DNA of 64,000 nucleotides from Clostridiales bacterium (GTDB taxonomy: Bacteria > Bacillota > Desulfotomaculia > Desulfotomaculales > VENG01). A program made the position numbers and the translations under genes. Below are positions 9,628 to 46,332 of the stretch, one piece after another. Location of the stretch: the NCBI GenBank assembly GCA_021736985.1, contig JAIPEW010000007.1:1-64000 (forward strand), read 5' to 3'. How positions within the stretch are numbered: the stretch's first letter is position 1; each line of letters begins with the position of its first letter. Under the pieces are notes generated by a model. That model saw only the letters and a list, made by a program, of their open reading frames with translations. It was not told the DNA's origin and did not search any database.

Positions 9628-9628
9628 A

Positions 9629-15116: not shown

Positions 15117-15136
15117 TACAATTCTCCTTTGGCTTG

Positions 15137-16604: not shown

Positions 16605-16651
16605 AATAAAAAAGCCTACCTTCTATATGTAATTGCCAAGCGAAGGCGGGC
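16605..16651 (-). terminator. Terminator of the isochorismatase-like unit
   Basis: Minus strand: GCCCGCCTTC ... GAAGGTAGGC with one mismatch and an 18-nt loop, followed by a T-run. Confidence 0.6.
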
Positions 16652-16669
16652 TTAAAATGTTAAAATTGA

Positions 16670-17343: not shown

Positions 17344-17384
17344 CTATTAGGTCATTATAATTACCTTTAATAATAAATTGATTT

Positions 17385-18676: not shown

Positions 18677-18705
18677 CCCCGGAACCTGTAAGGTTAATCC
18701 CGGGG
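18671..18705 (-). terminator. Terminator overlapping the end of gbsR-like gene 1
   Basis: CCCCGG/CCGGGG outer stem with inner AACCT/AGGTT, then six T on the minus strand. The gene's stop codon is inside the stem. Confidence 0.85.
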
Positions 18706-26956: not shown

Positions 26957-27604
26957 TTACAGCCCCATATCTTCATTGACAACCAGCACGTGAAAATCTG
27001 TCTGCCAGGGCCTGCGGTCAATAATTGTTGTTACGCGGCAGATACGGTTAGGAGAATTGCATTCCTGGCAAAAACCTGTCTTAGAACAGGGCGTTTCAAT
27101 ACCCAACCGTTTTGCATTTGGAGGTGCTGCATTTCTTTTTATCCTTTTTATAGCCTCGTGCTTATCGTAAACCAACTTATTGCGCCCTGCTACTATAATT
27201 ACCTTCCTGGGCCCGAAAAACATAGAAGCAACCCGGTTACCGTTTGCATCAATATTTACCAAGGAACCATCAATAGTAAGAGCGTTAGTTCCTGCAAGAA
27301 ACAAGTCGCTGGTTAGCTCGCGGCGCATTGTAGCTAATTTTTCTTCCGGTGATAAGTTAGGCTTGCCGTGATTAAGCAGTTCTTTACCTTTTTCCCCGAG
27401 TTTATCCTCTACTCCAAGACTTGCTATCGAAGCAGAACCGCCAAACCCCACGCTTTTAGCTTCTTCTGCTTGTCCAATAATGTATTCAAATGCATCTTTC
27501 TTAGTAGGACAATAAACTGCTGTAAAATTATTTTTCTCTAATGCCTCTACTGTTTTTTTACATTTTTGCTCATAACTCCAATTAACTAGTTCATTAGTAT
27601 TCAT
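26957..27604 (-). CDS. LUD-domain (LutC/YkgG-like) protein
   Basis: 215 residues of the LUD (DUF162) family, linked to lactate or thiol-linked oxidation in LutABC. Typical regions are VGFGGSASI, FLAGTNALTIDGSLVNIDANGNRVA and VIIVAGRNKLV. A C-terminal cysteine set (TPCSKTGFCQECNSPNRIC) resembles that of stand-alone LUD proteins in anaerobes. LutA and LutB are absent. ATG behind gggggatg. Physiological role unknown. Confidence 0.85.
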   Translation of the reverse strand: MNTNELVNWSYEQKCKKTVEALEKNNFTAVYCPTKKDAFEYIIGQAEEAKSVGFGGSASIASLGVEDKLGEKGKELLNHGKPNLSPEEKLATMRRELTSDLFLAGTNALTIDGSLVNIDANGNRVASMFFGPRKVIIVAGRNKLVYDKHEAIKRIKRNAAPPNAKRLGIETPCSKTGFCQECNSPNRICRVTTIIDRRPWQTDFHVLVVNEDMGL

Positions 27605-28068: not shown

Positions 28069-28959
28069 TTATTCACTTTCAACAACATTTCCTCCCGAGG
28101 AAACCGTAAAGATAATTAGCCCGAGTATAGTAATACCTGCCCCGGCAACCTGCAAAAAGGTTGGCACCTGGTGAAAAATAAAATATGCCAGGATCGTAGC
28201 TCCTACAGGCTCTCCTAAAATACCTACCGATATTATTGCAGCCTTAACATAACGCAGCGCCCAGTTAAGTACCGTATGACCGGCTATAGTAGGCAAGACT
28301 GCCAGAATACCCAGGTATATCCAGGTAAGCTTAGAATACCCTCCCAGGGGTAAATCCAATACAAAAACCCATGCCAACAATACCAGCACAGACATACCGT
28401 AAACCATAAGCGTATAATGAATTAGTGGCAAGCGTGCTCTCAGCCCCCTACCTATCAATACATAACCTGATATCATTGCAGCACCTGTAAACGCCAGTAT
28501 ATCCCCGTAAACAGCATCTCCCCCGGCATGTAAATCACTTACTCCTATTAAAACACATCCTAAAATAGCCAGTCCTGCCCCCAAAAAACTTTGGAAAGTT
28601 ATTTTCTCCTTGAAAAAAAGATACCCACCGCCTATCACAAACACAGGCTGCATAGTTACCAACACCGTAGAGCTGGTTACCGAGGTGTAGTCAAGAGAAG
28701 CAATCCAGGCTGTAAAGTGAAGCGCCAGCATAATTCCGGCAAGACAAGCCATTATGATATCTTTTTTTCTAAAACTGCTGCATCCCTGCCTCCCTTTAAT
28801 AAACATAAAGGGCATTAATATTAAGACAGTAAATCCCAGCCGGTAAAAAGCAATAATAACTGGTGCAGCCTGGGCTAGCTTGGTAAATATAGCTGAAGTA
28901 GAAATAGCCATAACACCCAAAAATACTGCCAGGTAAGGATTTATAACTAGTTTATGCAT
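28069..28959 (-). CDS. EamA-family (DMT) transporter
   Basis: 296 residues with ten hydrophobic helices in two five-helix halves, each an EamA repeat (AISTSAIFTKLAQAAPVIIAF early; GYVLIGRGLRARLP and LPTIAGHTVLNWALRYV late). Such carriers export amino acids or other metabolites; the substrate cannot be predicted. Its stop lies five bases before the ogt start, so the two formed an operon. Confidence 0.88.
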   Translation of the reverse strand: MHKLVINPYLAVFLGVMAISTSAIFTKLAQAAPVIIAFYRLGFTVLILMPFMFIKGRQGCSSFRKKDIIMACLAGIMLALHFTAWIASLDYTSVTSSTVLVTMQPVFVIGGGYLFFKEKITFQSFLGAGLAILGCVLIGVSDLHAGGDAVYGDILAFTGAAMISGYVLIGRGLRARLPLIHYTLMVYGMSVLVLLAWVFVLDLPLGGYSKLTWIYLGILAVLPTIAGHTVLNWALRYVKAAIISVGILGEPVGATILAYFIFHQVPTFLQVAGAGITILGLIIFTVSSGGNVVESE

Positions 28960-29102
28960 TTACTGTTTAACTCCTGTAACTAAAAATAAACTTCTTTAAT
29001 AACTTATCATTTAGAAAAGTTAAAGTACATAAAAATTATTTGAAATATAAGAACACTGGCAGGTCTCCTTGAATATACAATCATCCTTAGAAATACAAAG
29101 AA

Positions 29103-29130
29103 AAGACGGCTATAAAGCCGCCCTTTCTCA
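29103..29130 (-). terminator. Probable terminator of the oxidoreductase/acyl-CoA synthetase operon
   Basis: Minus strand: GGCGGCTTTATAGCCGTC hairpin followed by ttttctttg. It lies ~125 bp past the last gene of the long operon. A second plus-oriented hairpin with eight T (29221-29260) lies between it and the gene. Confidence 0.5.
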
Positions 29131-29255: not shown

Positions 29256-29921
29256 TTAGCTGCATTTTATTAATCCATCTACGGCAAGCACACTTTTACC
29301 TTTTTCATATACAAACAATGGATTAATATCTAGCTCTTCAATGTGAGGGTAACGCTCAACAATCTCGGAAAGCTTTACCAGGACATTTGCAAGTTCATCA
29401 ATGTCTGATTCCTTACTGCCCCTTACACCTTCTAAAACTTTAAAACCCTTTAATTCTCTGATCATTTTCACAGCCTCAGTTTTATCAACAGGTACAAGCC
29501 TTAATGCAACATCTTTTAGCACTTCAACAAATATCCCCCCCAGCCCGCAAAGTATAACATGTCCAAATTGTGAATCTTTTTTTATACCTGCAATAACCTC
29601 ATTACCTTTTTCAGCCATTTTTTGCAGCAATATACCTCGAATTTCAATGTTATCACCCTGGTTCTGAGCATTTTGCATAATATTTTCCCAGGACTTTTCC
29701 AAATCATTATCGCTTGCAACATTAAGCACAACGCATCCAGCATCAGTTTTATGCAATATATCCGGGGAAACAATTTTCATTACCAGCGGGTACCCTAATT
29801 TAGCTGCTTCTGCTTTAGCCTGTTCTTTATTCTCACATGAACTGTACTCAGATACTTTAATATCTTTTTCTTCTAAGATTTTATATACTTCTGTTTCTGT
29901 TAAATATTTCTGATCGCTCAA
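29256..29921 (-). CDS. ADP-forming acyl-CoA synthetase, beta (ATP-grasp) subunit
   Basis: 221 residues of an ATP-grasp domain: GYPLVMKIVSPDILHKTDAG (the histidine of the second phospho-transfer), LCGLGGIFVEVLKDVALRLVP and ELDINPLFV. With the alpha subunit next door it converts acyl-CoA, ADP and phosphate to free acid, CoA and ATP. This is substrate-level phosphorylation. It is last in the operon, 16 bp after the alpha gene. Acyl specificity is unknown. Confidence 0.9.
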   Translation of the reverse strand: MSDQKYLTETEVYKILEEKDIKVSEYSSCENKEQAKAEAAKLGYPLVMKIVSPDILHKTDAGCVVLNVASDNDLEKSWENIMQNAQNQGDNIEIRGILLQKMAEKGNEVIAGIKKDSQFGHVILCGLGGIFVEVLKDVALRLVPVDKTEAVKMIRELKGFKVLEGVRGSKESDIDELANVLVKLSEIVERYPHIEELDINPLFVYEKGKSVLAVDGLIKCS

Positions 29922-29937
29922 TATTATGCCCCCTTTC

Positions 29938-31374
29938 CTACTTGTTTAACTTTTTGAACTCAGAATACCTGATTAAATTCGCAGCAGCCTTTACTGCTCT
30001 ATCAGGTGTCTCAAAAGTTGGAATACCTGCTTCTTCTACAATTGTTCGAGCCTTATCAACCACATTTCCTGACATGATTACTACAAAAAGTGGTTTATTT
30101 TTATTATCATTACAAAGCTTAACTATCTCATCTCCCAGCTCATCCTGGGGTATAAAAGGAGTTAGAACCGAGATTAAAAAGCCCCCTTCTACTTCGGGCC
30201 CGTTAAACAAAATCCGTATCCCTTCAACATGCTGCTCAACATTGGCCGAAGCACTTATATCATTATAGCCTTCCGGGCTGCACACATTAGCCATCGGGGG
30301 TAAAAGTTCTTTCAATTTCTTCTTGGTCTCTTCACTGATCATTGGAGTCTCAAAAATATTTTCATTGCTCATAGTATCCATGCAAAAAATTCCGGGTCCT
30401 CCAGCCTGGCTTGTAAGAAAAAACTTGTTACCCTGGGGAAGCGATAACTGATCAAAAGCTCTTAGAGTATCAATCATCTCATCAATTGAATTTACCCTGA
30501 TAATACCGTACTGGCGAAACGCACTATCGTATATCTTGTCCTCTCCTGCCAGAGACCCGGTATGAGAACTTGCTGCTGTTGCTCCTTTTTCAGAGCGGCC
30601 GACCTTCAGTACTACAATGGGTTTTTTAGACGCTATACACCCCATAGTATCAATAAGTTTTCGTCCTTCGGGGTATCCTTCCATATACATTCCTATCACT
30701 CTAGTTGATTCATCATCCTCAAAATGTTCCAGCAGCTCTATAAAATCGACATCAGACATATTGCCAATCGAAACAAACTTGTTAAATTTCATTGGTGACA
30801 ATAATGAAGCGCCTCGCATTAATACCGATGCAGCCAGTGCCCCGCTCTGTGATATAAAGCTTATCCCACCGGCAATACCACGATTTTCCTCCGGTGTCAG
30901 GGTCTCAACAAAAGTGGTATCTACTCTTTTTTCATTGTCAACTACACCAATACAGTTAGGACCTATAACTCGTATATTATATTTTTTTGCAGTATCAGTT
31001 AACACTTTTTGCCTGTGTTTTCCTTCCGGCGTATCTAATTCTGCATAACCTGCTGCGGCACATACTATGGCTTTAATATCTCCCTTTTCCTGCATTCTTT
31101 TTTCTAAATCCTGCATTACCGGTTCTATCACGCTTGAAGGGGTGATTAGTATCAACATTTCTATACTATCTTCTATTTCGCTTAGAGTATTATAAGCCGG
31201 CAAACCAAGTATATTATCTTCTTTACGGTTAATTGGAAATATTTTTTTAGGATATTTAATCTTTAATAAATTGTTAGTTATTACATAACCAGCTTTCAAA
31301 GGATTATTCGAGGCACCCATTACAGCTATATTGTGAGGATCAAAAAAGCTGGTAAGAGAACTATTGTTCATCAT
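29938..31374 (-). CDS. ADP-forming acyl-CoA synthetase, alpha (CoA-binding/ligase) subunit
   Basis: About 478 residues: CoA-binding Rossmann domain (FFDPHNIAVMGASNNPLKAG), then two ligase domains. The phospho-histidine loop is ASSHTGSLAGEDKIYDSAFR. I start at the ATG at 31374 behind gggagg instead of 31392. The start overlaps the stop of the preceding oxidoreductase beta gene. Alpha and beta as separate genes is the arrangement of archaeal and some bacterial ACD enzymes, used to harvest ATP from acyl-CoA made by 2-oxoacid oxidoreductases, as the two clusters upstream suggest. Confidence 0.9.
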   Translation of the reverse strand: MMNNSSLTSFFDPHNIAVMGASNNPLKAGYVITNNLLKIKYPKKIFPINRKEDNILGLPAYNTLSEIEDSIEMLILITPSSVIEPVMQDLEKRMQEKGDIKAIVCAAAGYAELDTPEGKHRQKVLTDTAKKYNIRVIGPNCIGVVDNEKRVDTTFVETLTPEENRGIAGGISFISQSGALAASVLMRGASLLSPMKFNKFVSIGNMSDVDFIELLEHFEDDESTRVIGMYMEGYPEGRKLIDTMGCIASKKPIVVLKVGRSEKGATAASSHTGSLAGEDKIYDSAFRQYGIIRVNSIDEMIDTLRAFDQLSLPQGNKFFLTSQAGGPGIFCMDTMSNENIFETPMISEETKKKLKELLPPMANVCSPEGYNDISASANVEQHVEGIRILFNGPEVEGGFLISVLTPFIPQDELGDEIVKLCNDNKNKPLFVVIMSGNVVDKARTIVEEAGIPTFETPDRAVKAAANLIRYSEFKKLNK

Positions 31375-32287
31375 TTCGGCCTCCCTCAACACATGACATT
31401 TTTAGCTTATTCCATTTTTTATCTACATAATTTTGAATTTCTTCAATATCATCTTTTGATAAATGAGAAAACTTTTTAATTTTATTAATATATTGTTCAA
31501 CTGGCTTAGGTTTTTTAATATCTACTGTAAGTTTAAAATCACCATTTACTACTTCGTACAAAGGAAAGAACCTTGTCTGTACTGACAGCCTGCTGACCTC
31601 TATACTTTCATTAGGCTTAATCCCCCAGCCTGTCAAGCAGGGATTCAAAACATGAATATATGCTAATCCTTCTTTAACTTCCATGGCTTTTTTAACTTTA
31701 TTAACCAGGTCGGGTATATACGCTGGAGAAGCAGTTGCCATGTACGGAATATCATGCATTGCCATGATCATTGGAAAATCTTTTTTATGTTGTTTCTTTC
31801 CGCCCACTTTTTCTTTGCTTACTGGTGTAGTAGAGGTCCAAGCACCCCTGGTCGTAGAAGCACTTCTTTGATAACCAGTATTCATATACCCCTCATTGTC
31901 GTAGCAAATATAAATAATATTATCATTTCTTTCAGCGGCACCTGATAAACTCTGAAACCCGCAGTCAACAGAAGCACCGTCTCCTGCAAAAGCAACAACA
32001 TTTATGTCTCTACCTATCTTTTTATAATAAGCCTTTATACCCGCAAGCATAGAAGCTGTATTATCAAGCAAAGGGAAGAATACAGGAACATTTGCACCGG
32101 ATTTTTTATTCCAGCCCACTACTCCTACACCGCCCATGCAGCCAGGTGGAATAGCAATTATAGTATTTGGTCCCAGTACACGCATAACCGTTCTCAACGT
32201 TAATTCAACATTGCAGCCAACACATGCAGATATACCAGGGGAAATTAATTCTTTATTGTTAGATAGAGTTTCTATTGTTTCTCTCAA
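31361..32287 (-). CDS. 2-oxoacid:ferredoxin oxidoreductase, beta subunit (set 2)
   Basis: About 308 residues with the TPP-binding region FAGDGASVDCGFQSLSGA and CYDNEGYMNTGYQRSAST. The cluster cysteines CVGCNVEL are near the N-terminus. I start at the TTG at 32287, eight bases after ggagg. It ends 14 bp inside the next gene. Set 2 is the second copy of a four-subunit enzyme that decarboxylates a 2-oxoacid to acyl-CoA and reduces ferredoxin. It differs from set 1 in the residues around the TPP pocket, consistent with another substrate. Confidence 0.92.
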   Translation of the reverse strand: MRETIETLSNNKELISPGISACVGCNVELTLRTVMRVLGPNTIIAIPPGCMGGVGVVGWNKKSGANVPVFFPLLDNTASMLAGIKAYYKKIGRDINVVAFAGDGASVDCGFQSLSGAAERNDNIIYICYDNEGYMNTGYQRSASTTRGAWTSTTPVSKEKVGGKKQHKKDFPMIMAMHDIPYMATASPAYIPDLVNKVKKAMEVKEGLAYIHVLNPCLTGWGIKPNESIEVSRLSVQTRFFPLYEVVNGDFKLTVDIKKPKPVEQYINKIKKFSHLSKDDIEEIQNYVDKKWNKLKMSCVEGGRNDEQ

Positions 32288-32301
32288 TTTCTTCACCTCC
32301 C

Positions 32302-33477
32302 TTAGTTTTTTAACCAGACAGTTTGTGGATTATTTTCATTTTGATAAGCCTCATGTATCTTTACTATTGCATCCTCAAAATGTTCAATTGTTATATCTTC
32401 TCCGCCGAGTCCGCCGATAAACGGTACAGAAGGCATATAGCACTTGCTGTCATATAAAGCTGACTTTACTTCCTGGTATATAATTCCTGTGTCCCAGCCG
32501 AAAGAAACATTTCTATCAACTACACCAAAAGCTTTTTTACCAGATATAATTTCCATAACTTTTTGTTTTGGGAAAGGTCTTAATGCCCTTATTTTTAGAA
32601 GCCCGACCTTCAACCCCTCGTTCCTTTTGTGATCAACAGCTTCTCTGCAGGCTCCGGTCATAGACCCCATGGTTACTATCACATAATCTGCATCATCACA
32701 CTTGTAATTCTCAACCAGGCCGCCGTAACTTCTACCGGTAATGCCTTCATATAAAGAATCTACTTCTTCTATTAATTTAAGTGCTTCTTGTTGAGCTTTT
32801 AAATGTTTTTCACGGTACTCCATCAATAAATATCCACTTGTTAACGGATCAACAGCCATGGGTTTTTCAGAATCTAAGATAATATGCTCGGGATTGTATT
32901 CAGGCAAAAACCTGTCAATGTCCTGCTTGTCTGGGATTTCTACTTTTTCTGTCATGTGCGTCAAATAAAAACCATCAAAACATACATTTATAGGCAGTAA
33001 AACTTTTTTATCTTCAGCTATTCTGTATGCCTGAATTATTGTATCAAGTATCTCCTGGTTATCTTCCACGTATATCTGCAACCAGCCGGCATCTCTAACT
33101 GACAGTGAGTCCTGGGGCCCCCCCCAAACAGTTTGAGGTGAAATCATTTCCCTGTTTGTAACTGCCATGACTACCGGCAATCTCAGTGTTGAGGCCCTGA
33201 AATATGGCTCGTACATTAACGAAAGCCCCTGTGATGCAGTAGCTGTAAAAGTTCTTCCTCCTGACAAAGATGCACCTGTAAGCACACTCATAGCAGAATG
33301 TTCGGATTCAACTTCACTCATATAACTATCTATATCATTATTAATTACAAACTGCGTTAAATACTCAACAATTGAACTTTGAGGTGTAATAGGATATGCT
33401 GCAATCACATCAGGTTCTACCAGCGAGACAGCAACTGCAGCTGCTTTATTACCATTTATAACGTCAGTTTTTGGCAT
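32302..33477 (-). CDS. 2-oxoacid:ferredoxin oxidoreductase, alpha subunit (set 2)
   Basis: 391 residues with the alpha-subunit signature YPITPQSSIVEYLTQF, SGGRTFTATASQGLSLMYEP and DGFYLTH. It forms the catalytic core with beta. The operon order gamma-delta-alpha-beta matches pyruvate/ketoisovalerate:ferredoxin oxidoreductases. It overlaps the delta gene by 14 bp. Similarity to the set 1 alpha is high over the whole length. Confidence 0.92.
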   Translation of the reverse strand: MPKTDVINGNKAAAVAVSLVEPDVIAAYPITPQSSIVEYLTQFVINNDIDSYMSEVESEHSAMSVLTGASLSGGRTFTATASQGLSLMYEPYFRASTLRLPVVMAVTNREMISPQTVWGGPQDSLSVRDAGWLQIYVEDNQEILDTIIQAYRIAEDKKVLLPINVCFDGFYLTHMTEKVEIPDKQDIDRFLPEYNPEHIILDSEKPMAVDPLTSGYLLMEYREKHLKAQQEALKLIEEVDSLYEGITGRSYGGLVENYKCDDADYVIVTMGSMTGACREAVDHKRNEGLKVGLLKIRALRPFPKQKVMEIISGKKAFGVVDRNVSFGWDTGIIYQEVKSALYDSKCYMPSVPFIGGLGGEDITIEHFEDAIVKIHEAYQNENNPQTVWLKN

Positions 33478-33754
33478 AGCTACTACTCCCTTTTTCTACC
33501 ATTTTTATAGCACCAGACTTGCATTCTCTTGCACAAATACCGCAACCTTTACAGTAATCGTAATTTATCTCATAATAATCATCTTTCTTTTCTATACAAA
33601 AAACAGGGCAGTACAGAAAGCATAAACCGCATTTTTTACATTTTTCCTGGTCCAAAACAGGCTCATTAATTCTCCAATCACCTGTATTAATAGAATATAT
33701 ACCTTCACCTACTGACGTAATATATTCTTTTTCTTTACTTTCCATCATTTTCAC
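33464..33754 (-). CDS. 2-oxoacid:ferredoxin oxidoreductase, delta (2[4Fe-4S]) subunit (set 2)
   Basis: 96 residues with two ferredoxin motifs, CKKCGLCFLYCPVFC and CKGCGICARECKSGA. In the second motif the usual proline after the fourth cysteine is replaced by lysine. It passes electrons from the catalytic core to ferredoxin. Overlaps both neighbours (20 bp with gamma, 14 bp with alpha), which ensures balanced translation. Confidence 0.92.
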   Translation of the reverse strand: MKMMESKEKEYITSVGEGIYSINTGDWRINEPVLDQEKCKKCGLCFLYCPVFCIEKKDDYYEINYDYCKGCGICARECKSGAIKMVEKGSSSYAKN

Positions 33755-34292
33755 CTACCTCGTGCACTTCACATAATTCATAACCCTTTTCTGCTGCAGC
33801 CATATTTTTCTCGCCCCAGAGTTGCCCGGCGCGCTCACATACATATTTCAAATCTACCCAGTTAGTAGCCCTAACAAAAGCACCCAGCATAATAGTATTG
33901 GGAATCGGTCTACCAATAAACTCTAAAGACAGTGATGTAGCATCTAATATACCAACTTTAGTTATTTCTTCAGGTATATCAAGTTCATTTAAACTTTTAT
34001 TAGTGTTCATAACCATTATTGTATTATCACGTATACCCTCGAAAATATTTACTGCTTTTTGAATAGTCTCGTCCATAACAATTAAGCAATTGGGATGGTA
34101 TACCTGGTTTTTGGGCCTGATGGGTTTATCGTCTAATCTAACAAATGAAGTTACCGGAGCACCTTGCCTTTCAAAACCAAAAAACGGGATTGAATTACCG
34201 TAATTAGCACCTTTCACAGAAGCATATACCAGTACTTCACCTGCTTTAACGGTACCCATCCCTCCCCGTCCGTGCAATCTTATCTCTCTCAT
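33735..34292 (-). CDS. 2-oxoacid:ferredoxin oxidoreductase, gamma subunit (set 2)
   Basis: 185 residues starting REIRLHGRGGMGTVKAGEVL, the gamma signature, with PFFGFERQGAPVTSFVRLDD and the C-terminal NTIMLGAFVRATNWVDL. Second four-subunit set begins here, ~50 bp after the beta gene of set 1. The gamma subunit binds and positions CoA. Confidence 0.92.
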   Translation of the reverse strand: MREIRLHGRGGMGTVKAGEVLVYASVKGANYGNSIPFFGFERQGAPVTSFVRLDDKPIRPKNQVYHPNCLIVMDETIQKAVNIFEGIRDNTIMVMNTNKSLNELDIPEEITKVGILDATSLSLEFIGRPIPNTIMLGAFVRATNWVDLKYVCERAGQLWGEKNMAAAEKGYELCEVHEVGENDGK

Positions 34293-34343
34293 TTTTTCAG
34301 CTCCTTAAGTCTGCACTTCTAAAATAATTATTTATTAAGTTAA

Positions 34344-35249
34344 TTAATTTATATTTTCTCCTGCTAAATTTACGAGATTATTGTATTTTTCATCAACATG
34401 AGCCTGTATTTCTTCTATATCTTTTTCATCGAGATGCTTGAATTTCTTGGATAATTTTAAGAAATTAGAAACTGGCTCAGGGTTAGCTACTTTCTTTAAC
34501 TTAAAACTATTATTTTCATATTCATACAGCGGGAAAAAATTTGTTTTTACTGCTTTTCTAGCTACTTCAATAGATAAATCAGAATTAAATCTCCATCCAG
34601 TTGGACAGGGACTGCAAACATGTAAATAACTTAATCCTTCTTTTACACTCATTGCTTTTTTAAGCTTACTAACAAAATCTTTCATGTAAGCCGGATTTAA
34701 TGTAGCAACATATGCAGCATTATGCATGGCCATAATCATTGGCATATCTTTTTTATGCTGAGCTTTTCCTTTAATTAAAGATCCTACGGGAGTTGTACTG
34801 GTATGTGAACCTTTTGTTGTAGTCCCACTCCTCTGGAATCCGGTATTCATATACCCCTCGTTGTCGTAGCAGATATATATAATGTTATGGCCTCGTTCAG
34901 CAGCACCTGATAACGATTGAAAACCACAATCTGCAGTTGCGCCGTCTCCTGCAATAGCAACAACTTGTACATCCTCATCTAAATAATCATATAATTCTTT
35001 AACTCCTGCTAAAAATGATGCTGTGTTATCCAATAAAGTAATATGAACAGGAATTTTCAAGCCGTTATCATAATTCCAACCGACAACACCTGCACCTGCA
35101 AGACATCCCGGGGGTATAGCAACAACCGTGTTTTTCCCAAGCACTCTTAAAGCAGTCCTAAGGCACAATTCTGCCCCGCAACCTTGACATGCAGAGATTC
35201 CAGGAGATACCAGGTCTTCTTGCTCCATCAATATATCACGATACTTCAT
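34344..35249 (-). CDS. 2-oxoacid:ferredoxin oxidoreductase, beta subunit (set 1)
   Basis: 301 residues: cluster ligands CQGCGAEL, TPP site IAGDGATADCGFQSLSGA and CYDNEGYMNTGFQRSGTT. I start at the ATG at 35249 behind ggggga, which overlaps the alpha gene by 14 bp. The upstream in-frame ATG at 35303 lies deep inside alpha. Closely related to the set 2 beta subunit, indicating tandem duplication of the whole enzyme. Confidence 0.92.
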   Translation of the reverse strand: MKYRDILMEQEDLVSPGISACQGCGAELCLRTALRVLGKNTVVAIPPGCLAGAGVVGWNYDNGLKIPVHITLLDNTASFLAGVKELYDYLDEDVQVVAIAGDGATADCGFQSLSGAAERGHNIIYICYDNEGYMNTGFQRSGTTTKGSHTSTTPVGSLIKGKAQHKKDMPMIMAMHNAAYVATLNPAYMKDFVSKLKKAMSVKEGLSYLHVCSPCPTGWRFNSDLSIEVARKAVKTNFFPLYEYENNSFKLKKVANPEPVSNFLKLSKKFKHLDEKDIEEIQAHVDEKYNNLVNLAGENIN

Positions 35250-36432
35250 GTAACTCTCCCCCTTTTTTAAACCAGATACATTTATGATATTTCTTGTAGT
35301 CACTGGTCTTTTGTAAAAGATCTATACAATTTGTAAAATGATTAAGTGTAATATCTGCTCCACCCAGTCCTCCTATAACAGGAACCAATGATATGTCATC
35401 ACACCTGTTCAATGCCGCTTTAACTTCAACAAATAATGTACCTGTGTTCCATCCAAAACAAACATTTCTATCTACCACTGCCACGGCTTTTTTACCTTTT
35501 AATACTTCATTTACTTTAGTTTCAGGGAATGGTCTCATAGCTCTTATCTTTAATAACCCTGCTTTTATGCCCTGTTCTCTCTTTATATTAACTGCTTCTT
35601 TAGCTGTACCGGTCATAGACCCCATAGTAACTAAAACTATATCTGCATCATCACAAAGATATTCCTGTACTGCACCACCATAATATCTTCCAAAGCTATT
35701 TCCAAAATCATTATCAACATCATCTATAACTTCCAGGGCTTTATGTGCTGCTTTCAAATGATCTTCTCTATATTCCATCAATATATCCCCGGGAGTTAAA
35801 GGATCAACTGCCATTGGTTCAGAAGGGTTAAACTTCACATGCTGCGGGTTATATCCAGGCAAAAATTGATCTACTTTTTCCTGGGGCGGCACTTCTACTC
35901 TTTCCATGAGATGAGATAAGAAAAAGCCATCATAAATAATATTTATAGGTAATAATACTTTTTGATTTTCAGCAACTTTATAGCCCTGAATAATCATATC
36001 TAAAATCTCTTGATTATCTTCTACGTACATTTGCAGCCAGCCGGCATCTCGAACCGAAATTGAGTCTTGCTGGCTTCCCCATACTGTTTCCGGAGATGTC
36101 ATTTCCCGCCCGGCTATAGCCATAACCATTGGCAATCTTAAGGTTGACATGCGGAAATAAGGTTCGTACATCAAGGCCAATCCTTGAGCTGAAGTAGCAG
36201 TAAATGTTCTTGCTCCGCTCACAGCTGCTCCTTGAACTACACTCATAGCAGAATGTTCAGACTCTACCTCGACCATTTTAGAATTTAATTCACCGTTAGC
36301 AATCATACCGGCTAAATTTTCTACCACAGAAGATTGTGGTGTGATAGGATAAGCTGCAATAACTTGAGGTTTTGCCAGGGCAGCACCGATTGCTGCTGCA
36401 GTATTTCCAGTTGTTGCCATAACTTTACTCAT
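35236..36432 (-). CDS. 2-oxoacid:ferredoxin oxidoreductase, alpha subunit (set 1)
   Basis: 398 residues with YPITPQSSVVENLAGM, SGARTFTATSAQGLALMYEP, DGFFLSH and the conserved RVEVPPQEKVDQFLPGYNP region. It begins one base after the delta gene. Together with gamma, delta and beta it completes a four-subunit enzyme. The acyl specificity (branched, aromatic or pyruvate) cannot be read from sequence by eye. Confidence 0.92.
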   Translation of the reverse strand: MSKVMATTGNTAAAIGAALAKPQVIAAYPITPQSSVVENLAGMIANGELNSKMVEVESEHSAMSVVQGAAVSGARTFTATSAQGLALMYEPYFRMSTLRLPMVMAIAGREMTSPETVWGSQQDSISVRDAGWLQMYVEDNQEILDMIIQGYKVAENQKVLLPINIIYDGFFLSHLMERVEVPPQEKVDQFLPGYNPQHVKFNPSEPMAVDPLTPGDILMEYREDHLKAAHKALEVIDDVDNDFGNSFGRYYGGAVQEYLCDDADIVLVTMGSMTGTAKEAVNIKREQGIKAGLLKIRAMRPFPETKVNEVLKGKKAVAVVDRNVCFGWNTGTLFVEVKAALNRCDDISLVPVIGGLGGADITLNHFTNCIDLLQKTSDYKKYHKCIWFKKGGELHEVS

Positions 36433-36699
36433 TTACTTGCTGCCTCCTTCCAGAACCATATCTATAGCATTTTTAGGGCATTCCTGGGCACAAATACCGC
36501 ATCCCTTGCAATATTTTAAATCAATATAGAACTCTTCATCTTTTTTATATACTGAATTTACTGGACAATAATCATAACAAAATCCACAGTTAATACATTT
36601 TTCCTTATCTATAACCGGGTAAAAATTACGCCAGCTTGCAGTATCAATTACATACATACCTTCTTTGCCAATTGGACAAATATGCTGTTTTTCTGCCAA
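36433..36699 (-). CDS. 2-oxoacid:ferredoxin oxidoreductase, delta (2[4Fe-4S]) subunit (set 1)
   Basis: 88 residues with both ferredoxin motifs intact: CINCGFCYDYCPVN and CKGCGICAQECPKNA. It follows the gamma gene by 12 bp and abuts alpha. Electron outlet of the complex to ferredoxin. Confidence 0.93.
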   Translation of the reverse strand: MAEKQHICPIGKEGMYVIDTASWRNFYPVIDKEKCINCGFCYDYCPVNSVYKKDEEFYIDLKYCKGCGICAQECPKNAIDMVLEGGSK

Positions 36700-36711
36700 T
36701 CCATTTCCCTC

Positions 36712-37263
36712 CTAGCATTCGTAAATTTTAACTTCTTCGTATGCTTTTTGAGCAGCCCGGGCGTTTTCTTCTCCAAACTGCTTCAAAATATTGTTTTCCA
36801 CAGTTGATTTATCGACCCAGGATGTGACACTAACAAATGCACCCAACATTGTAGTATTTGGTATTCCTTTACCTATAACATTTAACGCTGTTTCAGTAGC
36901 ATCTATTATGCCTATTTTCATGCCGATATTTTGAGCACTTTCAGGTAAGTTTAACTCTTCTACTGATTTTCTGCTGTTTATTACTACATAGCTGTTGTTT
37001 CTCAAGCCCTCAAAAACATCAATCTGATCCAGCAAACTATCATCCATGATAACCAGGCAATCAGGCTCGTACACCTGTGACTTAATATCAATTGACTGGC
37101 TGTCAATTCTTGCAAAACCATAAACAGGTGAACCTTTTCTTTCTACACCAAAAAAGGGAATAAAATGAGCGTATTCACCAGTTTCAATAACGCTTTTTAC
37201 TAGTATCTGGGCAGATTTAACTACGCCTTGCCCTCCCCTGCCGTGAAATCTTATTTCTTTCAC
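36712..37263 (-). CDS. 2-oxoacid:ferredoxin oxidoreductase, gamma subunit (set 1)
   Basis: 183 residues with EIRFHGRGGQGVVKSAQILV at the start, FFGVERKGSPVYGFARID in the middle and NTTMLGAFVSVTSWVDK near the end. First gene of the set 1 enzyme, 33 bp after the TRAP permease gene, so transport and oxidation are on one transcript. Confidence 0.92.
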   Translation of the reverse strand: MKEIRFHGRGGQGVVKSAQILVKSVIETGEYAHFIPFFGVERKGSPVYGFARIDSQSIDIKSQVYEPDCLVIMDDSLLDQIDVFEGLRNNSYVVINSRKSVEELNLPESAQNIGMKIGIIDATETALNVIGKGIPNTTMLGAFVSVTSWVDKSTVENNILKQFGEENARAAQKAYEEVKIYEC

Positions 37264-37296
37264 TGTTTTCAGCTCCTTTGTATGTTCAAATATTAT

Positions 37297-38586
37297 TTAT
37301 ACAACATTTGGCATTAATAATTCGGGCAGCCAAAGAGTTAAAGAAGGGATATAGGTGGTTAGTAATAATATTACTAACAATGCTATTAAGAATGGAATTG
37401 CGTTTACACTTACATCTTCGACTTTTGTATCACTGATCATAGCACCCGTATAAAGGCACACTCCCAGTGGAGGTGTCAAATTACCAATACCCAGGTTCAA
37501 AATCATCATTATGCCAAAATGAATGGGACTCAGCCCCAATTGCTGCGCAACAGGTATTAATACAGGTGTGCATATAATCAATAAAGCAGCGGTTTCCATG
37601 AAAAAGCCTGCAAATAAAAGAGCTATATTTATTATTAAAAGAATTACAAATGTATTAGAAGATATACCCAATAGAATATTCAATATTGTTTGAGGTACCT
37701 GTTCTGCTGCTACAATCCAGCCAAAAATCGCTGCATTAGCTATAATAAACATAATTAACACCGAGGTCATGGTACCTTCTAAAATAGTCTTTATTAACTC
37801 CTTAAAACTCATTTCCCTGTATATAAACACGGAAACTAGTGCACCATAAACCACCGCGATAACAGCAGCTTCAGTTGGAGTAAATATTCCAGCCAATATA
37901 CCGCCTATCATAATTACAGGAGTTCCCAGTGCCCAAAACGCATCTTTAAAAGTCACTAAAAATTCTTTCCATGTATAAGAGACTTTTTTACCGGAATAAC
38001 CTCTTTTCTTAGCAACTAAATAGCATACTACTAGGAGGCTCAATGCCATTAAAATACCTATGGGGATCCCGGCTACAAAAAGAGCGCCTATTGATGTGCT
38101 GGAAATAGCTCCATATATAACCATGGACAAACTGGGCGGTATTATAACTCCCATTATACCTCCTGCAGCCGCAACACTGGCTGCATAAGACTTGTCATAT
38201 CCCCTTTGATTCATTTCCGGTACCATAATTCCACCAACTGCTGCCGTAGTAGCAACGTTTGATCCTGATATAGCTGAAAAAAACATTGCGGAAAGTATGG
38301 TAACCATGCTTAAGCCGCCGGTTAATCTTGCAATTAATATTTCACATAAACTTACTAATCTTTTAGCTAAACCGCCTTTGCTCATAACAGAACCGGCAAT
38401 TATAAACGCAGGGATTGCTGCTAAAATAATTGAATCTGTTTGAGTAAACATTCTCTGAGCAACAGCAATTATTGGTATTCCTTCATAAATAACGCAAATT
38501 ACTGATGCAAGCCCAACTGATACTGCGATAGGTACTCCTAAAAGCATAAATACTATTAAGGTGCCAAATAACAACAAAACTGTCAT
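37297..38586 (-). CDS. TRAP transporter large permease (DctM-like)
   Basis: 429 residues, twelve or more hydrophobic helices. It shows the large-subunit pattern GVPIAVSVGLASV, AIPAFIIAGSVMSKGG, GSNVATTAAVGGIMVPEM and NLTPPLGVCLYTGAMI. Sodium-driven import of organic acids together with the DctQ and DctP proteins encoded upstream. It begins two bases after the DctQ gene stop. Confidence 0.93.
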   Translation of the reverse strand: MTVLLLFGTLIVFMLLGVPIAVSVGLASVICVIYEGIPIIAVAQRMFTQTDSIILAAIPAFIIAGSVMSKGGLAKRLVSLCEILIARLTGGLSMVTILSAMFFSAISGSNVATTAAVGGIMVPEMNQRGYDKSYAASVAAAGGIMGVIIPPSLSMVIYGAISSTSIGALFVAGIPIGILMALSLLVVCYLVAKKRGYSGKKVSYTWKEFLVTFKDAFWALGTPVIMIGGILAGIFTPTEAAVIAVVYGALVSVFIYREMSFKELIKTILEGTMTSVLIMFIIANAAIFGWIVAAEQVPQTILNILLGISSNTFVILLIINIALLFAGFFMETAALLIICTPVLIPVAQQLGLSPIHFGIMMILNLGIGNLTPPLGVCLYTGAMISDTKVEDVSVNAIPFLIALLVILLLTTYIPSLTLWLPELLMPNVV

Positions 38587-38588
38587 TT

Positions 38589-39095
38589 TTAATTCCCCTC
38601 TAAATTATTATTTTTAGAGATGATTTCTTTTATGATGTAAGCTATATCGTTAATCAGATTTAAGAATATAACCAGCGCAGAAACCGGCACTGCTGCATAA
38701 AACCAGGCCATAGACATGGGAATAGCAGAAGATATCTGTGGGATTACAAGCTTCACTGTTTTTATGCCGGATACAAACACAACTATAATTAAAGTCATGA
38801 AACATAATCTGCTTAATAAAATAAATATATTTTTTGTTCTAGCAGGGAACCTGTCGCGAACAAATGTTAATGCAATATGACTCCTGGATTTTACAGCAAC
38901 AGCCGCCCCTAGAAAAGAGGTCCAAACCAGCATGTACCTGGCTAAACCATCGGCCCAGGATAAAGCAAAATCAAATACATATCTAAGAATGACCTGTACT
39001 GTCATTGATACTATTAAGACTATAATAAAAGTAGTTACCAGGACTTTGCATACTTGATTGATCTTGTCAGTAACCTTGTTTAACGTACTTAACAT
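38589..39095 (-). CDS. TRAP transporter small permease (DctQ-like)
   Basis: 168 residues with four transmembrane helices and the family signature LRYVFDFALSWADGLARYMLVW (shown in part: RYVFDFALSWADGL). Lies between the PanE-like gene and the large permease. Confidence 0.92.
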   Translation of the reverse strand: MLSTLNKVTDKINQVCKVLVTTFIIVLIVSMTVQVILRYVFDFALSWADGLARYMLVWTSFLGAAVAVKSRSHIALTFVRDRFPARTKNIFILLSRLCFMTLIIVVFVSGIKTVKLVIPQISSAIPMSMAWFYAAVPVSALVIFLNLINDIAYIIKEIISKNNNLEGN

Positions 39096-39112
39096 AGTTA
39101 AGTCCTCCTACT

Positions 39113-40048
39113 TTAAAACAATTGATAAGAATAAGTATTTTCCATTACCTTAATAAGGTTCAGTAATACTGTATTTACAGGTACTGGAATATTGTGCTTT
39201 TTTGCTTCCCTTACAATTGCCCCGTTAATCATTTCAATTTCGGTTTTCCTCTTATTCTTAAAATCAAATACCATTGAGGGATAATGACCATAATTTTCAT
39301 AAGCTACTTTTTTTAGATGCTCAAATGATGTTTCATAATCCATTTCTATACCCTTAGCATTGGCGACATCGACAATCTCTTTTGTAACAGAACTCAGTAA
39401 AAATTCCGAACCTTCCTGGTCTGCAAAATGACCGCAATTAAGCCTGGTAATAGCAGTAATAGTATTCAACGAGCAATTGACAATTAGTTTATTCCATATA
39501 TCTCTTTCTACTTCATAAGAAATATTAAGGTTAATACCTGCTTTTTGGAAAGTGTCCACGATATTTAAGATTTCATCATTCACTTCAGCTTTAAGGGGTT
39601 TAACCGGCGTATTACCTTTAGTTGTGCAAGTAAATTCAATATGGCCGGGCCCTTTTAAATCACATGACAAGGTAGTCATACCAAAAAGTATTTTTTCTTC
39701 ATCTACAAATCTTGAAATAACATCTGTATTTCCTATACCGTTTTGTACCGTCAAAATATAAGTATTATCGTTAATCATCGGTGCAGCATTCTTTAATGCA
39801 ATCTCAGTATGCAGTCCTTTAACAAAAACAATTATTAAATCTACATAACCGGCCTTTTCCGGGGTATCTGTAGCATTAACTTTAATAACCTCTTCTTTGT
39901 CCCCTGTATCTACCATTAAACCATTTTCATTTATTTTTTCTATATGTTCTTTCCAAACATCAATAAGCCAAACCTCTTCACCTGATTTAGACAACAGCCC
40001 GCCAAAAAGACTTCCCATTGATCCTGCGCCTATAACTCCAATTTTCAT
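39113..40048 (-). CDS. PanE/ApbA-family 2-oxoacid/2-hydroxyacid dehydrogenase
   Basis: 311 residues of the ketopantoate reductase family: nucleotide motif IGAGSMGSLFGGLLSKSG at the N-terminus, VQNGIGN, DIWNKLIVNCSLN with the catalytic lysine, and an EIEMINGAIVREAKK helix. Being inside a TRAP/oxidoreductase operon argues against pantothenate synthesis. Some members are D-2-hydroxyacid dehydrogenases (for example mandelate type). I infer interconversion of an imported 2-hydroxyacid and the 2-oxoacid fed to the downstream oxidoreductases. Confidence 0.85.
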   Translation of the reverse strand: MKIGVIGAGSMGSLFGGLLSKSGEEVWLIDVWKEHIEKINENGLMVDTGDKEEVIKVNATDTPEKAGYVDLIIVFVKGLHTEIALKNAAPMINDNTYILTVQNGIGNTDVISRFVDEEKILFGMTTLSCDLKGPGHIEFTCTTKGNTPVKPLKAEVNDEILNIVDTFQKAGINLNISYEVERDIWNKLIVNCSLNTITAITRLNCGHFADQEGSEFLLSSVTKEIVDVANAKGIEMDYETSFEHLKKVAYENYGHYPSMVFDFKNKRKTEIEMINGAIVREAKKHNIPVPVNTVLLNLIKVMENTYSYQLF

Positions 40049-40079
40049 ATCTACCCTTCCCTCTTTTATATATTGATGT

Positions 40080-40119
40080 TGTAATTGTGAGGTTTATAAT
40101 TATAAACCTCACAATTACA
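40080..40119. promoter_or_regulatory. Perfect 40-bp palindrome between dctP and panE-like genes
   Basis: Bases 40080-40099 (tgtaattgtgaggtttataa) are the exact reverse complement of 40100-40119. In RNA this is a 20-bp hairpin just after the binding-protein gene. Such hairpins often protect or terminate part of the message, giving more binding protein than permease. Confidence 0.9.
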
Positions 40120-40129
40120 GAAATATATA

Positions 40130-41140
40130 TTATTGAAGATCTAAAATACCATTAACCCATTTTTCTCCGTGTTCTTCAGAAAATTCCTTATACAGCGGAG
40201 AAACTTTTTCCTGAAATGGCTCTTTATTTACTTCTGTTACTTTCATTCCGTATTCATTTTCTAATTTTTCTCTAAGAACTTTCTCATCTTTTTGTACATT
40301 TTTCATTTCGTCATAAGTAGCTTCTTCACCAACCTCTTGTATAATTTGCTTATATTCATCTGGCAATTTATTAAGAGTTATTTTGCTTCCCAATAAGTTA
40401 GTGAAACTGAATGTATGTCCTGTTAAAGACAAGTATTCCTGTACTTCATATACTTTTTGAGAATTTATAACTGTCAGAGGATTTTCTTGTCCATCAATAG
40501 TACCTTGCTGCAAAGAAGTATAAACTTCACCCCAGGACATTGGTACTGCAGATGCTCCAAGGGTATTAAAAGTCTTAATGTATACCGGACTCTGCATAAC
40601 CCTGATTTTCAGTCCTTCTATATCTGCCGGAGTTTTTACAGGCTTAACAGAATTAGTTAAATTTCTGAAGCCTTGAGATAAAAAGCCTAAATGTTCTAAA
40701 TTCCTTGAATCCAATTTAGAAGCTAAATCTTCAGCAATTTCTGAATTTCTAAATTCAAAACCTTGATCCCAGCTGCTAAATATGAAAGGAAGGTCCAGTA
40801 CGCCTATTTCAGGAACAAATTGAGCCAGCGGGCCATTTGTTACAAAAGCCAGATCAACTGTGCCTGCTTGAAGTCCTTCAATTAAATCCCTATCATTTCC
40901 CAACTGCCCGCCGTAGTATATTTCCACTTTCACCTTGCCATCTGTACGTTCTTCAACTTTTTTCTTGAAATCTTCTGAAGCTGCTTGCCATGGATGAGTT
41001 TGTGAAGCCTGGTGAGCTATCTTTAAAGTATACACTTTATCCTTGGATGCATCACCAGATTTATCACCATTACCTCCACACCCAACTGCACAAACGCTAA
41101 CCGCCAACAGAACCACAAGAGCGATAAATAATTTTTTCAT
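40130..41140 (-). CDS. TRAP transporter solute-binding lipoprotein (DctP family)
   Basis: 336 residues: signal peptide with lipobox AVGC (Cys 21), then a DctP domain with LKIAHQASQTHPWQAASEDF, AGTVDLAFVTNGPLAQFVPE, LGFLSQGFRNLTNSVKP and the ligand-carboxylate arginine region IEGLKIRVMQSPVYIKTF. First gene of the operon, divergent from the Lrp-type regulator across ~590 bp. It captures an organic acid, by context a 2-hydroxy- or 2-oxoacid. Confidence 0.93.
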   Translation of the reverse strand: MKKLFIALVVLLAVSVCAVGCGGNGDKSGDASKDKVYTLKIAHQASQTHPWQAASEDFKKKVEERTDGKVKVEIYYGGQLGNDRDLIEGLQAGTVDLAFVTNGPLAQFVPEIGVLDLPFIFSSWDQGFEFRNSEIAEDLASKLDSRNLEHLGFLSQGFRNLTNSVKPVKTPADIEGLKIRVMQSPVYIKTFNTLGASAVPMSWGEVYTSLQQGTIDGQENPLTVINSQKVYEVQEYLSLTGHTFSFTNLLGSKITLNKLPDEYKQIIQEVGEEATYDEMKNVQKDEKVLREKLENEYGMKVTEVNKEPFQEKVSPLYKEFSEEHGEKWVNGILDLQ

Positions 41141-41727
41141 ATTTTCCCTCCATCCCCTTTATAGTTTTTAAAACCCAACCCCTGAGACGACTTTGTCAAA
41201 AACTACAATTACATTAAATAAACTAGATATCACCTCCATTAGAAATTAAACTCTTTTTAACAATTTAAATACAATCTCACATATCATTGAACAGTTTTTT
41301 ATTTTTATAGTAATACATTCGTAATAATCTAAACTTTAACCTCTTTACATCTAATGTTTTTTGCGTAATATTGCATGCAGGTTGCATTTTTTCCAAGTTC
41401 AAATTTCTCAAATGTTTTTGTTTTTTAAAAAATCACAAAATTGATAACATTGAGAGCATTGTTTATTCTTTATATTTGTTATATAAATAGCACTTTCAGT
41501 TGTAAACCGTCATATTATGTTATATTTTGTTTTAAAAAGAATATTATGTTATTGGTGATAATACAAAAAAGATTACTTTACCTGATTGATAACATTTTAC
41601 TAATATCTTTTTTTTGCTATAATAAGATATAGATAAGTAGACAATCAATTATGGCAATATTTTGTTTTTTACATTTATCGAATTTGTTTGTATATTAAAC
41701 CACGACAAAAAAACGGAGGTATATATT
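41141..41727. promoter_or_regulatory. Divergent control region between dctP and lrp-like genes
   Basis: A very AT-rich 590-bp region without a gene. It must hold the promoters for both directions, probably with Lrp-type sites, but I find no strict palindrome. A plus-strand open frame here (41441-41632) lacks a ribosome site. Confidence 0.5.
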
Positions 41728-42225
41728 TTGAGTGATGTTAAAGACATGTACCCCAAAATAGAAGATGTAGATCAGAATATAATGGATGATATAGATATAA
41801 AAATACTAAACTTGCTATCTTTTAATGGAAGAATGAGTTATGCAGAAATATCACGACATGTTAACATTTCCAGGATGGCTGTAAGAGACAGGGTAATAAA
41901 CCTGGAGGAAAAAGGGATAATTCAGAAGTTTTCCGTATTAGTAGACGCTCGTAAAATTGGCTATAATGTTTCTGTTTTTCTATTGATTAAGGTAAAACCC
42001 AAATTACTTGAAAGAGTTGCTCAAATAGTTTCTAAACTTCCCAATATAGTTGTTGTCTATTCTTCTACAGGATTAAATGCTTTACACGTACATGGTTTCG
42101 TGGAAGATACTGTTGCTCTGGAGCAATTTATACAAAATGAAATATATTCAATAGAAGGTGTAATTGAAGTAGAATCAAACTTATTGTTAAAAAGATATAA
42201 AAGTGAAAGAATGATTTTAATATAA
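41728..42225 (+). CDS. Lrp/AsnC-family transcriptional regulator
   Basis: 165 residues from the TTG at 41728, eight bases after ggaggt. The upstream ATG at 41662 has no ribosome site. The helix-turn-helix (DIDIKILNLLSFNGRMSYAE, HVNISRMAVRDRVINLEEKG) is followed by a RAM ligand domain. Divergent from the TRAP-oxidoreductase operon and so very likely its regulator, sensing an amino or oxo acid. Ends at a strong convergent terminator. Confidence 0.9.
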   Translation: MSDVKDMYPKIEDVDQNIMDDIDIKILNLLSFNGRMSYAEISRHVNISRMAVRDRVINLEEKGIIQKFSVLVDARKIGYNVSVFLLIKVKPKLLERVAQIVSKLPNIVVVYSSTGLNALHVHGFVEDTVALEQFIQNEIYSIEGVIEVESNLLLKRYKSERMILI

Positions 42226-44622: not shown

Positions 44623-44652
44623 AGCTGAAAACCTCCTCTAGAAATACCCGTA

Positions 44653-45471: not shown

Positions 45472-45495
45472 TACAACACCTTCTTAATTTATAAA

Positions 45496-46308: not shown

Positions 46309-46332
46309 ATCCCGGCAACACTTCCTTTATAT

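Follow-up and report, generated by a model that had tools for sequence, protein, structure and literature searches.

The stretch of DNA analyzed here, hereafter the window, comprises positions 1 to 64,000 (64,000 nucleotides) of contig JAIPEW010000007.1 from a Clostridiales bacterium (assembly GCA_021736985.1). Between positions 41140 and 29256 its minus strand carries 14 intact and co-directional genes, which probably form an operon that lets the cell draw energy from an external D-2-hydroxy monocarboxylic acid. We envision that a tripartite ATP-independent periplasmic (TRAP) importer would take up the acid, that a PanE-type dehydrogenase would oxidize it with NAD+ to the 2-oxo acid and NADH, that one or both of two 2-oxoacid:ferredoxin oxidoreductases (OFORs) would convert the 2-oxo acid, with CoA and ferredoxin, into acyl-CoA, CO2 and reduced ferredoxin, and that an ADP-forming acyl-CoA synthetase (ACD) would turn the acyl-CoA into the free acid with the gain of one ATP. 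A divergently encoded Lrp-type regulator would sense the acid or an intermediate. The direction of breakdown is suggested by TRAP import, the NAD-type dehydrogenase and the ADP-forming synthetase. If this is true, 2-hydroxy acids, known as reduced end products excreted by other anaerobes, would gain a direct energy-yielding route: substrate-level phosphorylation would supply one ATP per acid, alongside NADH and low-potential ferredoxin, and the oxidation steps would need no respiratory acceptor.

Gene order, recurrence and control

In order of transcription, the genes are dctP, a panE-like gene, dctQ, dctM, the gamma, delta, alpha and beta subunits of a first OFOR (OFOR1), the same four subunits of a second (OFOR2), and the alpha and beta subunits of the ACD. 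All 14 proteins exceed the gathering scores of their Pfam families. The ACD alpha subunit (29938–31392) carries CoA_binding_2 and Succ_CoA_lig domains and the beta subunit (29256–29921) an ATP-grasp_5 domain (245 bits), which is the make-up of an ADP-forming acyl-CoA synthetase. The intergenic gaps amount, in the same order, to 81, 17, 2, 33, 12 and 0 bases, an overlap, 51 bases, two overlaps, 5 bases, an overlap and 16 bases, the widest gap inside the island being 81 bases. An earlier note, made from the sequence alone, had described a tightly overlapping, one-directional 14-gene island with a TRAP importer, a PanE-like enzyme and an ADP-forming synthetase beneath a divergent Lrp-type gene; the open reading frames (ORFs), the Pfam domains and the gaps of 81 bases or less bear this description out. 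We infer that the 14 genes are co-transcribed as a single operon.

The main evidence for a pathway comes from other genomes (G, C and L numbers denote genomes, contigs and loci). Searches with the OFOR alpha subunit covered 60 relatives, 113 genomes from the class and 398 from the phylum; those with the PanE-type enzyme covered 398 phylum genomes plus 22 from the order to which G258 belongs, and two small searches (8 genomes) were added. The phylum searches scored at most 4 or 5 candidates per genome, and paralogues may be missed; around most matches 3 to 20 kb were read, with key neighbor genes assigned by Pfam and NCBIfam and the rest by BLAST. At E 1e-95, the OFOR alpha is present in at least 27 of the 398 phylum genomes, the window's own included, and wider surroundings were read in 18 of the other 26 and in two genomes from the class search. 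Alphas at least 55% identical are rare, with six other genomes in the phylum search and one in the class search. Five further genomes of the phylum also combine PanE, an OFOR and an ATP module. G332 and G258, of one genus, have DctPQM, PanE, one OFOR, a fused ACD and a UbiD gene in a row; G284, of the same order, has OFOR, PanE, TRAP, Buk and Ptb in a row; G449 has OFOR, Buk, PanE and Ptb, with no TRAP seen; and G133 has the PanE closest to that of the window (49%), CstA, a VOR-type OFOR, Ptb and Buk. The importer is thus TRAP or CstA, the OFOR is POR-type or VOR-type, and the ATP enzyme is a split ACD, a fused ACD or Ptb-Buk. Parts appear to have been swapped, but the three functions of oxidizing the hydroxy acid, forming acyl-CoA and recovering ATP remain linked, and because the gene set recurs with exchanged importers, OFOR types and ATP enzymes, we view the island as a pathway and not as a coincidence. 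The co-occurrence analysis that the earlier note had called for therefore backs its logic of import, oxidation, decarboxylation to acyl-CoA and ATP formation.

A further locus, L067 (G125 C1:284001-304000, positions 8651-16974), holds an OFOR, a fused ACD and an adjacent UbiD gene with a DASS-type transporter behind them, and no PanE or TRAP match lies in the 20 kb of this locus; we read it as a related module fed by another importer.

The Lrp/AsnC-type gene (41728–42225, plus strand; Pfam HTH_AsnC-type and AsnC_trans_reg domains) is divergent from the operon. Its longest ORF opens at 41662, and a GGAGG followed by TTG makes 41728 the likelier start on a reading of the sequence. The intergenic control region towards dctP (41141–41727, approximately 590 bases) is AT-rich, contains imperfect inverted repeats, and has a single ORF of at least 60 residues wholly inside it (41441-41632). 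An Lrp protein 49% identical (142 aligned residues) precedes OFOR, ACD alpha and ACD beta in G370 (L064), which favors Lrp as the pathway's regulator. At other loci its place is taken by LysR (L062 by Pfam, L117 by BLAST) or IclR (L050, L053 and L054 by Pfam, L142 by BLAST) regulators. Just 3' of the last gene lies a terminator-like hairpin of 14 pairs with a loop of 4 and a T-rich tail (29098–29129, minus strand), and the remaining minus-strand terminator-like matches between 41140 and 29256 are all intragenic, with 5-6 pairs. Since terminator-like matches (9 versus 9.0 expected) and promoter-like matches (50 versus 52.6) in the scanned region are at chance level, the evidence here is the position and length of that single hairpin. 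Beyond it, on the same strand, follow an EamA transporter (28069-28959), which might export a product acid, and a LUD-domain protein (26957-27604).

The dehydrogenase and the importer

The PanE-type protein (39113–40048, minus strand; Pfam ApbA and ApbA_C) is predicted to be an NAD-type D-2-hydroxyacid dehydrogenase of the PanE/KPR family. Its closest solved structures are of the KPR fold (2ew2, 8wl1, 8wl3, 8wl4 and 3wfi) and are all labeled 2-dehydropantoate 2-reductase in the PDB; 3wfi we take to be a D-mandelate/D-2-hydroxyacid dehydrogenase. N103, K187 and E270, presumably the catalytic residues, are conserved in 37/37 rows of our alignment. The two domains and the conserved Asn, Lys and Glu place the protein in a family that, as Wada and colleagues reportedly described in 2008, is defined by D-mandelate dehydrogenases and ketopantoate reductases. 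At the NAD position it has an aspartate, Asp30, as does 3wfi, and this signature would fit NAD-dependent oxidation of a D-2-hydroxy acid.

For a tree of the family, 42 places were listed and 37 rows used, leaving out the five lowest (G313, G114 C144, G135, G220 and G446 C8). A BLAST match above 60 bits counted as a neighbor if it lay on the same strand and no more than 9 kb away; some contigs are short (L104, 3 kb), and missing neighbors there prove little. The window's protein falls in a clade of 8 (98/99) with PanB nearby in 0/8 and an OFOR in 6/8. Of the remaining 29, PanB accompanies 23, several of them with FolD and formate-THF ligase, and an OFOR accompanies 2. Fisher p values are 0.0003 (OFOR) and 0.00008 (PanB), or 0.001 and 0.0002 with the sister genomes G258 and G332 counted once, although the rows are related and these values are only a guide. 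The two clade rows lacking an OFOR (L113 and L124) sit on long branches and have no PanB either. The NAD-position aspartate occurs in all six OFOR-linked rows of the clade and is absent from these two; because it is common on the PanB side as well, it is a mark of NAD use and not of the clade. The tree looks as if it divides two uses of the enzyme, the PanB side resembling pantoate metabolism. If so, a genomic rule suggests itself (membership of this PanE clade, the NAD aspartate, an OFOR neighbor and no PanB) that would separate catabolic enzymes from '2-dehydropantoate 2-reductase' annotations. Outside these genomes, a plasmid search with PanE returned only two Mesorhizobium records (35%), and a scan of genome contigs returned one distant Spirochaete contig (5.5 kb) with PanE and DctPQM and no OFOR match on it.

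The three TRAP subunits, DctP (40130–41140; substrate-binding lipoprotein, Pfam 303 bits), DctQ (38589–39095; small membrane subunit, 98 bits) and DctM (37297–38586; large membrane subunit, 376 bits), are encoded together. For the AlphaFold model of DctP (pLDDT 90), the best match is 4nq8 (41% identity, Z 43.0), and further EFI-series TRAP proteins come next; sialate binders score lower by Z (approximately 39, at approximately 32% identity). The earlier note had held that a preference for an unrelated ligand such as sialate or ectoine would speak against its reading, and the nearest relative of DctP binds neither. Several structures related to IseP appear among the structural matches; according to the excerpted text of PMC11668362, such structures mostly bound pantoate or erythronate, most ligands having been co-purified, with contacts from two arginines, an asparagine, an aromatic lid and an acidic residue that reaches the ligand hydroxyl. 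By our own mapping, at a constant offset of 7, the matching DctP positions are R180, R159, N220, W203 and D83. R159, R180 and N220 are invariant in 15/15 aligned DctP rows, and the lid position is alanine in the proteins of L062, L063 and L117. The predicted pocket fits a 2-hydroxy monocarboxylate, without naming which one.

Could the imported acid be pantoate itself? The TRAP system would then import pantoate, PanE would yield ketopantoate and the OFOR would form hydroxypivaloyl-CoA; alternatively, the OFOR would act on 2-oxoisovalerate made by a PanB encoded elsewhere. Pantoate and erythronate binders are among the structures related to DctP (PMC11668362, excerpted text). Clusters of PanB, PanE and TRAP genes are also common, and contig C30 of the window's own genome carries one that is accompanied by a VOR-type OFOR. 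That genome is therefore already provided with such a cluster, no PanB is found among the island genes, the window's PanE stands outside the PanB-linked group, and VOR models fit the OFOR alphas less well than those of PadG and PorA do. We consider pantoate very unlikely. Biosynthesis of pantothenate was also considered as the reason for the PanE-like gene: PanC lies elsewhere in the genome, no PanB lies within 1.5 kb of PanC, and the C30 PanB may thus serve either purpose.

The C30 cluster (L122, G000 contig C30:22001-42000, positions 7926-18906) comprises PanB, PanE, an IclR-like gene, DctPQM, a sigma-54 activator, VOR-type OFOR alpha, beta and gamma subunits and an AIRC-domain gene. Together with the other PanB-PanE-TRAP clusters, some extended by FolD and formate-THF ligase, it suggests that pantoate is broken down by a ketopantoate hydroxymethyltransferase working in reverse, the C1 unit going to formate with ATP. 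At L116 (G257 C61:47001-60000, positions 3626-11022), a single run combines PanE and PanB with two butyrate-kinase-like genes, one Ptb-like gene and a VOR-type OFOR (PanB by Pfam, the others by BLAST); it looks like a route from pantoate to isobutyrate with ATP.

A serious rival to the breakdown of an imported hydroxy acid reverses the dehydrogenase. A 2-oxo acid, imported or made from an amino acid, would be dismuted: part would pass through OFOR and ACD to the acid and ATP, and PanE would use NADH to reduce another part to a D-2-hydroxy acid for excretion, in a Stickland-like redox balance. The PanE-type enzyme has characterized relatives that work chiefly as reductases. Its clade includes G133, which has CstA as transporter; the known members of the CstA family transport pyruvate, and import of a 2-oxo acid is therefore possible. 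OFOR1 relatives lie beside IclR regulators with no PanE in the stretch read, their neighbors being an amino-acid permease (L053), an amino-acid-type binding protein and Ptb (L050), or Buk (L142), a context that suggests 2-oxo acids from amino acids as well. OFOR plus a kinase or ligase is moreover a known Stickland branch (PMC13285125, excerpted text). These observations count against an imported hydroxy acid, as do two weaknesses on the importer side, where a sialate binder reaches rank 5 in Foldseek's own order of DctP matches and the grouping of DctP with L062, L063 and L117 (84/98) carries a long-branch warning. Against dismutation stand the acidic residue of DctP, described as bonding the ligand hydroxyl, the embedding of the panE-like gene between dctP and dctQ, and the lack of an aminotransferase among the 14 genes, though one could lie elsewhere. 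Dismutation therefore strikes us as unlikely, and we retain uptake and oxidation of a D-2-hydroxy acid as the preferred reading.

The two oxidoreductases and the choice of acid

Both OFORs are complete four-subunit enzymes, as the earlier note had read them. OFOR1 consists of gamma (36712–37263; Pfam POR), a delta ferredoxin subunit with two [4Fe-4S] clusters (36433–36699; Fer4 in two stretches), alpha (35236–36432; POR_N and PFOR_II) and beta (34344–35249; TPP_enzyme_C), the last from an ORF that opens at 35303 with a likely ATG start at 35249, an internal methionine of the translation. OFOR2 consists of gamma (33735–34292; POR), delta (33464–33754; Fer4, two [4Fe-4S]), alpha (32302–33477; POR_N and PFOR_II) and beta (31361–32296; TPP_enzyme_C). 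Together they account for two of the seven POR-gamma loci of the 2.84 Mb genome. Identities between the two sets are 46, 53, 59 and 61% for gamma, delta, alpha and beta. In an alpha tree of 40 rows (sister genomes L062 and L063 as one row only; L142 not in the tree), both copies lie within one 9-row clade (100/100), where OFOR2 groups with G066 and G219 (97/88) and OFOR1 belongs to a six-row clade with G276, G300, G348, G449 and G479 (97/96). These separate, supported subclades with relatives in other genomes rule out a recent tandem duplication, and together with the 46-61% identity they point to two old lines kept side by side. The view in the earlier note that the doubling means two substrates or a division of labor gains support from the same subclades.

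The active site sets the clade apart. After the active-site arginine, R-E-M-[TI]-S is found in 9/9 clade alphas and 0/31 others, which have no glutamate there; the variable residue is threonine in the OFOR1 subclade (6/6) and isoleucine in the OFOR2 subclade (3/3). Further on, the other alphas have an aspartate (29/31) and then a histidine (29/31; both in 27/31), which are absent from 9/9 clade alphas. The altered loop and the threonine/isoleucine difference would fit a non-pyruvate substrate and two specificities.

The best NCBIfam models are those of phenylglyoxylate dehydrogenase, PadG for the alphas (OFOR1 457 and OFOR2 485 bits) and PadI for the betas (382 and 375 bits), with PadE best for the OFOR2 gamma (188 bits). 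PadG leads the next model by 18-66 bits in 5/5 scored clade alphas (both window copies, L052, L055 and L142), and PadI leads by 48-87 bits in 7/7 scored betas (both window copies, L020, L052, L053, L055 and L142). Among POR-like alphas outside the clade (L062, L117, L067, L060 and L065), PadG lies 122-158 bits below the best, archaeal pyruvate synthase model, and among outside betas (L062, L117, L060 and L065) PadI lies 91-140 bits below the best. The window alphas score 440 and 458 bits with PorA_Arch, below its cut-off of 550, and 129 and 119 bits with VorB (NF005507), below its cut-off of 399, which the controls L101 (592) and L122 (567) exceed. Oxalate oxidoreductase, the second-best PDB match, was set aside: its alpha model gives 284 and 279 bits against a cut-off of 500, and the PIR of the oxalate enzyme is PIT in the window. 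Relatives extend to Acetoanaerobium, in which the L142 alpha is 64% identical to OFOR1; a plasmid search with the OFOR2 alpha found Acetoanaerobium noterae (56%) and three weaker records.

Sequence alone cannot fix the substrate, and an aryl-type acid is our best guess. The affinity to PadG and PadI, the R-E-M-[TI]-S motif, a VdcC-type neighbor at related loci and the family link to D-mandelate dehydrogenases lead us, tentatively, to an arylglycolate, a mandelate-type acid that would be converted to a benzoate-type acid. A full arylglycolate fermentation, in which arylglyoxylate would pass through aroyl-CoA to a benzoate-type acid and ATP by two arylglyoxylate oxidoreductases of different specificity, is possible though doubtful; the two OFORs would then serve two related 2-oxo acids, for instance differently substituted ones. 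The VdcC-type neighbor is a UbiD enzyme beside the single-OFOR cluster (L062, at the end of the G332 cluster), which scores 757 bits with the VdcC model against a cut-off of 650; a UbiD gene also lies directly behind OFOR and ACD in G125. If the acid is an arylglycolate, a hydroxyarylic acid decarboxylase in G258 and G332 would complete a line to a phenol. A VdcC-type decarboxylase was rejected for the window's own genome, whose one UbiD homologue (contig C58) is 31% identical to that of L062. A UbiX-like flavin prenyltransferase ORF was recognized by eye at 935-1495 of the window.

Several results weigh against the aryl interpretation. All PadG and PadI scores fall well short of the 700-bit cut-off, and the OFOR1 gamma is best matched by pyruvate oxidoreductase gamma models (192 and 191 bits, against 149 for PadE). 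The VdcC-linked clusters use an OFOR of another clade, with POR (alpha) and VOR (beta) as best models, and the aryl hint from VdcC is therefore not directly transferable to the island. Sister clusters end in Ptb-Buk, and OFOR1-type enzymes have amino-acid transporters or kinases as neighbors at other loci. The ring hydrolase TIGR03200, by which we looked for complete degradation of the aromatic ring, was not found over its cut-off in the genome (43 bits; other ring-reduction genes were not searched), and a benzoate-type product would thus probably have to be excreted.

Aliphatic or branched D-2-hydroxy acids, such as 2-hydroxyisovalerate and 2-hydroxyisocaproate, would be processed by the same mechanism. 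As an answer to the question of the substrate, which overlaps with the preferred hydroxy-acid reading, they are possible though doubtful, and only slightly less likely than an arylglycolate. Ptb-Buk, with which the sister clusters end, is typical of short branched acyl-CoAs. The G133 OFOR belongs to the VorB family over its cut-off, a pantoate-like DctP pocket would fit, and the VOR beta model is second-best for the OFOR1 beta (323 bits). However, the alphas score far lower with VorB and also lower with the archaeal VOR model (344 and 329 bits) than with PadG, and according to the excerpted text of PMC13285125 the Ptb-Buk homologues HpdJ and HpdK also serve arylacetates.

Elsewhere in the window, an ABC transporter beside the island (43573-47142) consists of two similar TupA-like binding proteins flanking one permease, plus an ATPase; we presume that it carries tungstate or molybdate, the names being our assumption and only the ATPase having been scanned by Pfam. 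No empty site could be demonstrated in the family-mate G001, where the best match to the neighboring transporter ATPase is 38% identical and is not an obvious counterpart. At 3734-4791, two ORFs look, by eye, like parts of an insertion element, namely fragments of a transposase (integrase core) and of an AAA helper.

Relation to known systems

The individual parts have characterized counterparts. The predicted dehydrogenase shares its fold family, the NAD-type aspartate and the conserved Asn, Lys and Glu with KPR-type D-2-hydroxyacid and D-mandelate dehydrogenases (3wfi, 2ew2), but here it is linked to an importer and OFORs. The binding proteins 4nq8, 4pak and 4xeq, which we take to belong to the pantoate/erythronate group (including which entry holds which ligand), are among the best structural and sequence matches of DctP; motifs near the invariant arginine that are common in PanB-linked DctPs are, by eye, absent from it. 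The ACD shares its domain set with NDP-forming acyl-CoA synthetases (2csu and 4xyl, matched by the alpha subunit at 7e-98 and 5e-68), whereas its alpha subunit stays below the acetate-CoA ligase cut-off (TIGR02717, 403 against 567 bits). DctP, PanE and the ACD are soluble, which makes the substrate simple to test.

Among NCBIfam models, those of PadEFGHI (Aromatoleum and Thauera) come closest to the two alphas, the two betas and the OFOR2 gamma. Enzymes of this type have an extra NADH-handling subunit, and no such gene is present among the 14; in addition, all window scores lie below cut-off and the OFOR1 gamma is nearer to pyruvate models. The PadEFGHI product feeds benzoyl-CoA degradation (PMC5109826, excerpted text), whereas in the island the ACD would release the acid.

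The closest parallel for the second half is oxidative fermentation. An OFOR followed by Ptb/Buk or an ADP-forming ligase is described for tyrosine fermentation and is widespread in Firmicutes, and PadG, PFOR and VOR fall in one mixed cluster (PMC13285125, excerpted text). In Clostridium scatologenes, HpdDEFG-HpdJ-HpdK likewise uses a four-subunit OFOR to form acyl-CoA and reduced ferredoxin and then ATP, with Ptb/Buk-type enzymes or an ADP-forming ligase named as alternatives; the island, with OFOR and ACD in one run, has the make-up of this oxidative Stickland branch. Unlike the island, the Hpd branch starts from an amino acid via an arylpyruvate, the excerpted text names no TRAP or PanE enzyme for it, and HpdE is VOR-like (cluster 3) whereas the window's OFORs are PadG/PorA-like. 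We found no description, in the open-licence literature searched, of an OFOR-ATP module joined to TRAP and PanE. The earlier statement that no described pathway has this gene set therefore holds, as far as that literature goes, for the hydroxy-acid front end and fails for the OFOR-to-ATP half, which is described (PMC13285125, excerpted text). Taken together, we view the island as an oxidative branch of fermentation fitted with a front end for hydroxy acids, in which the conversion from OFOR to ATP is known biochemistry.

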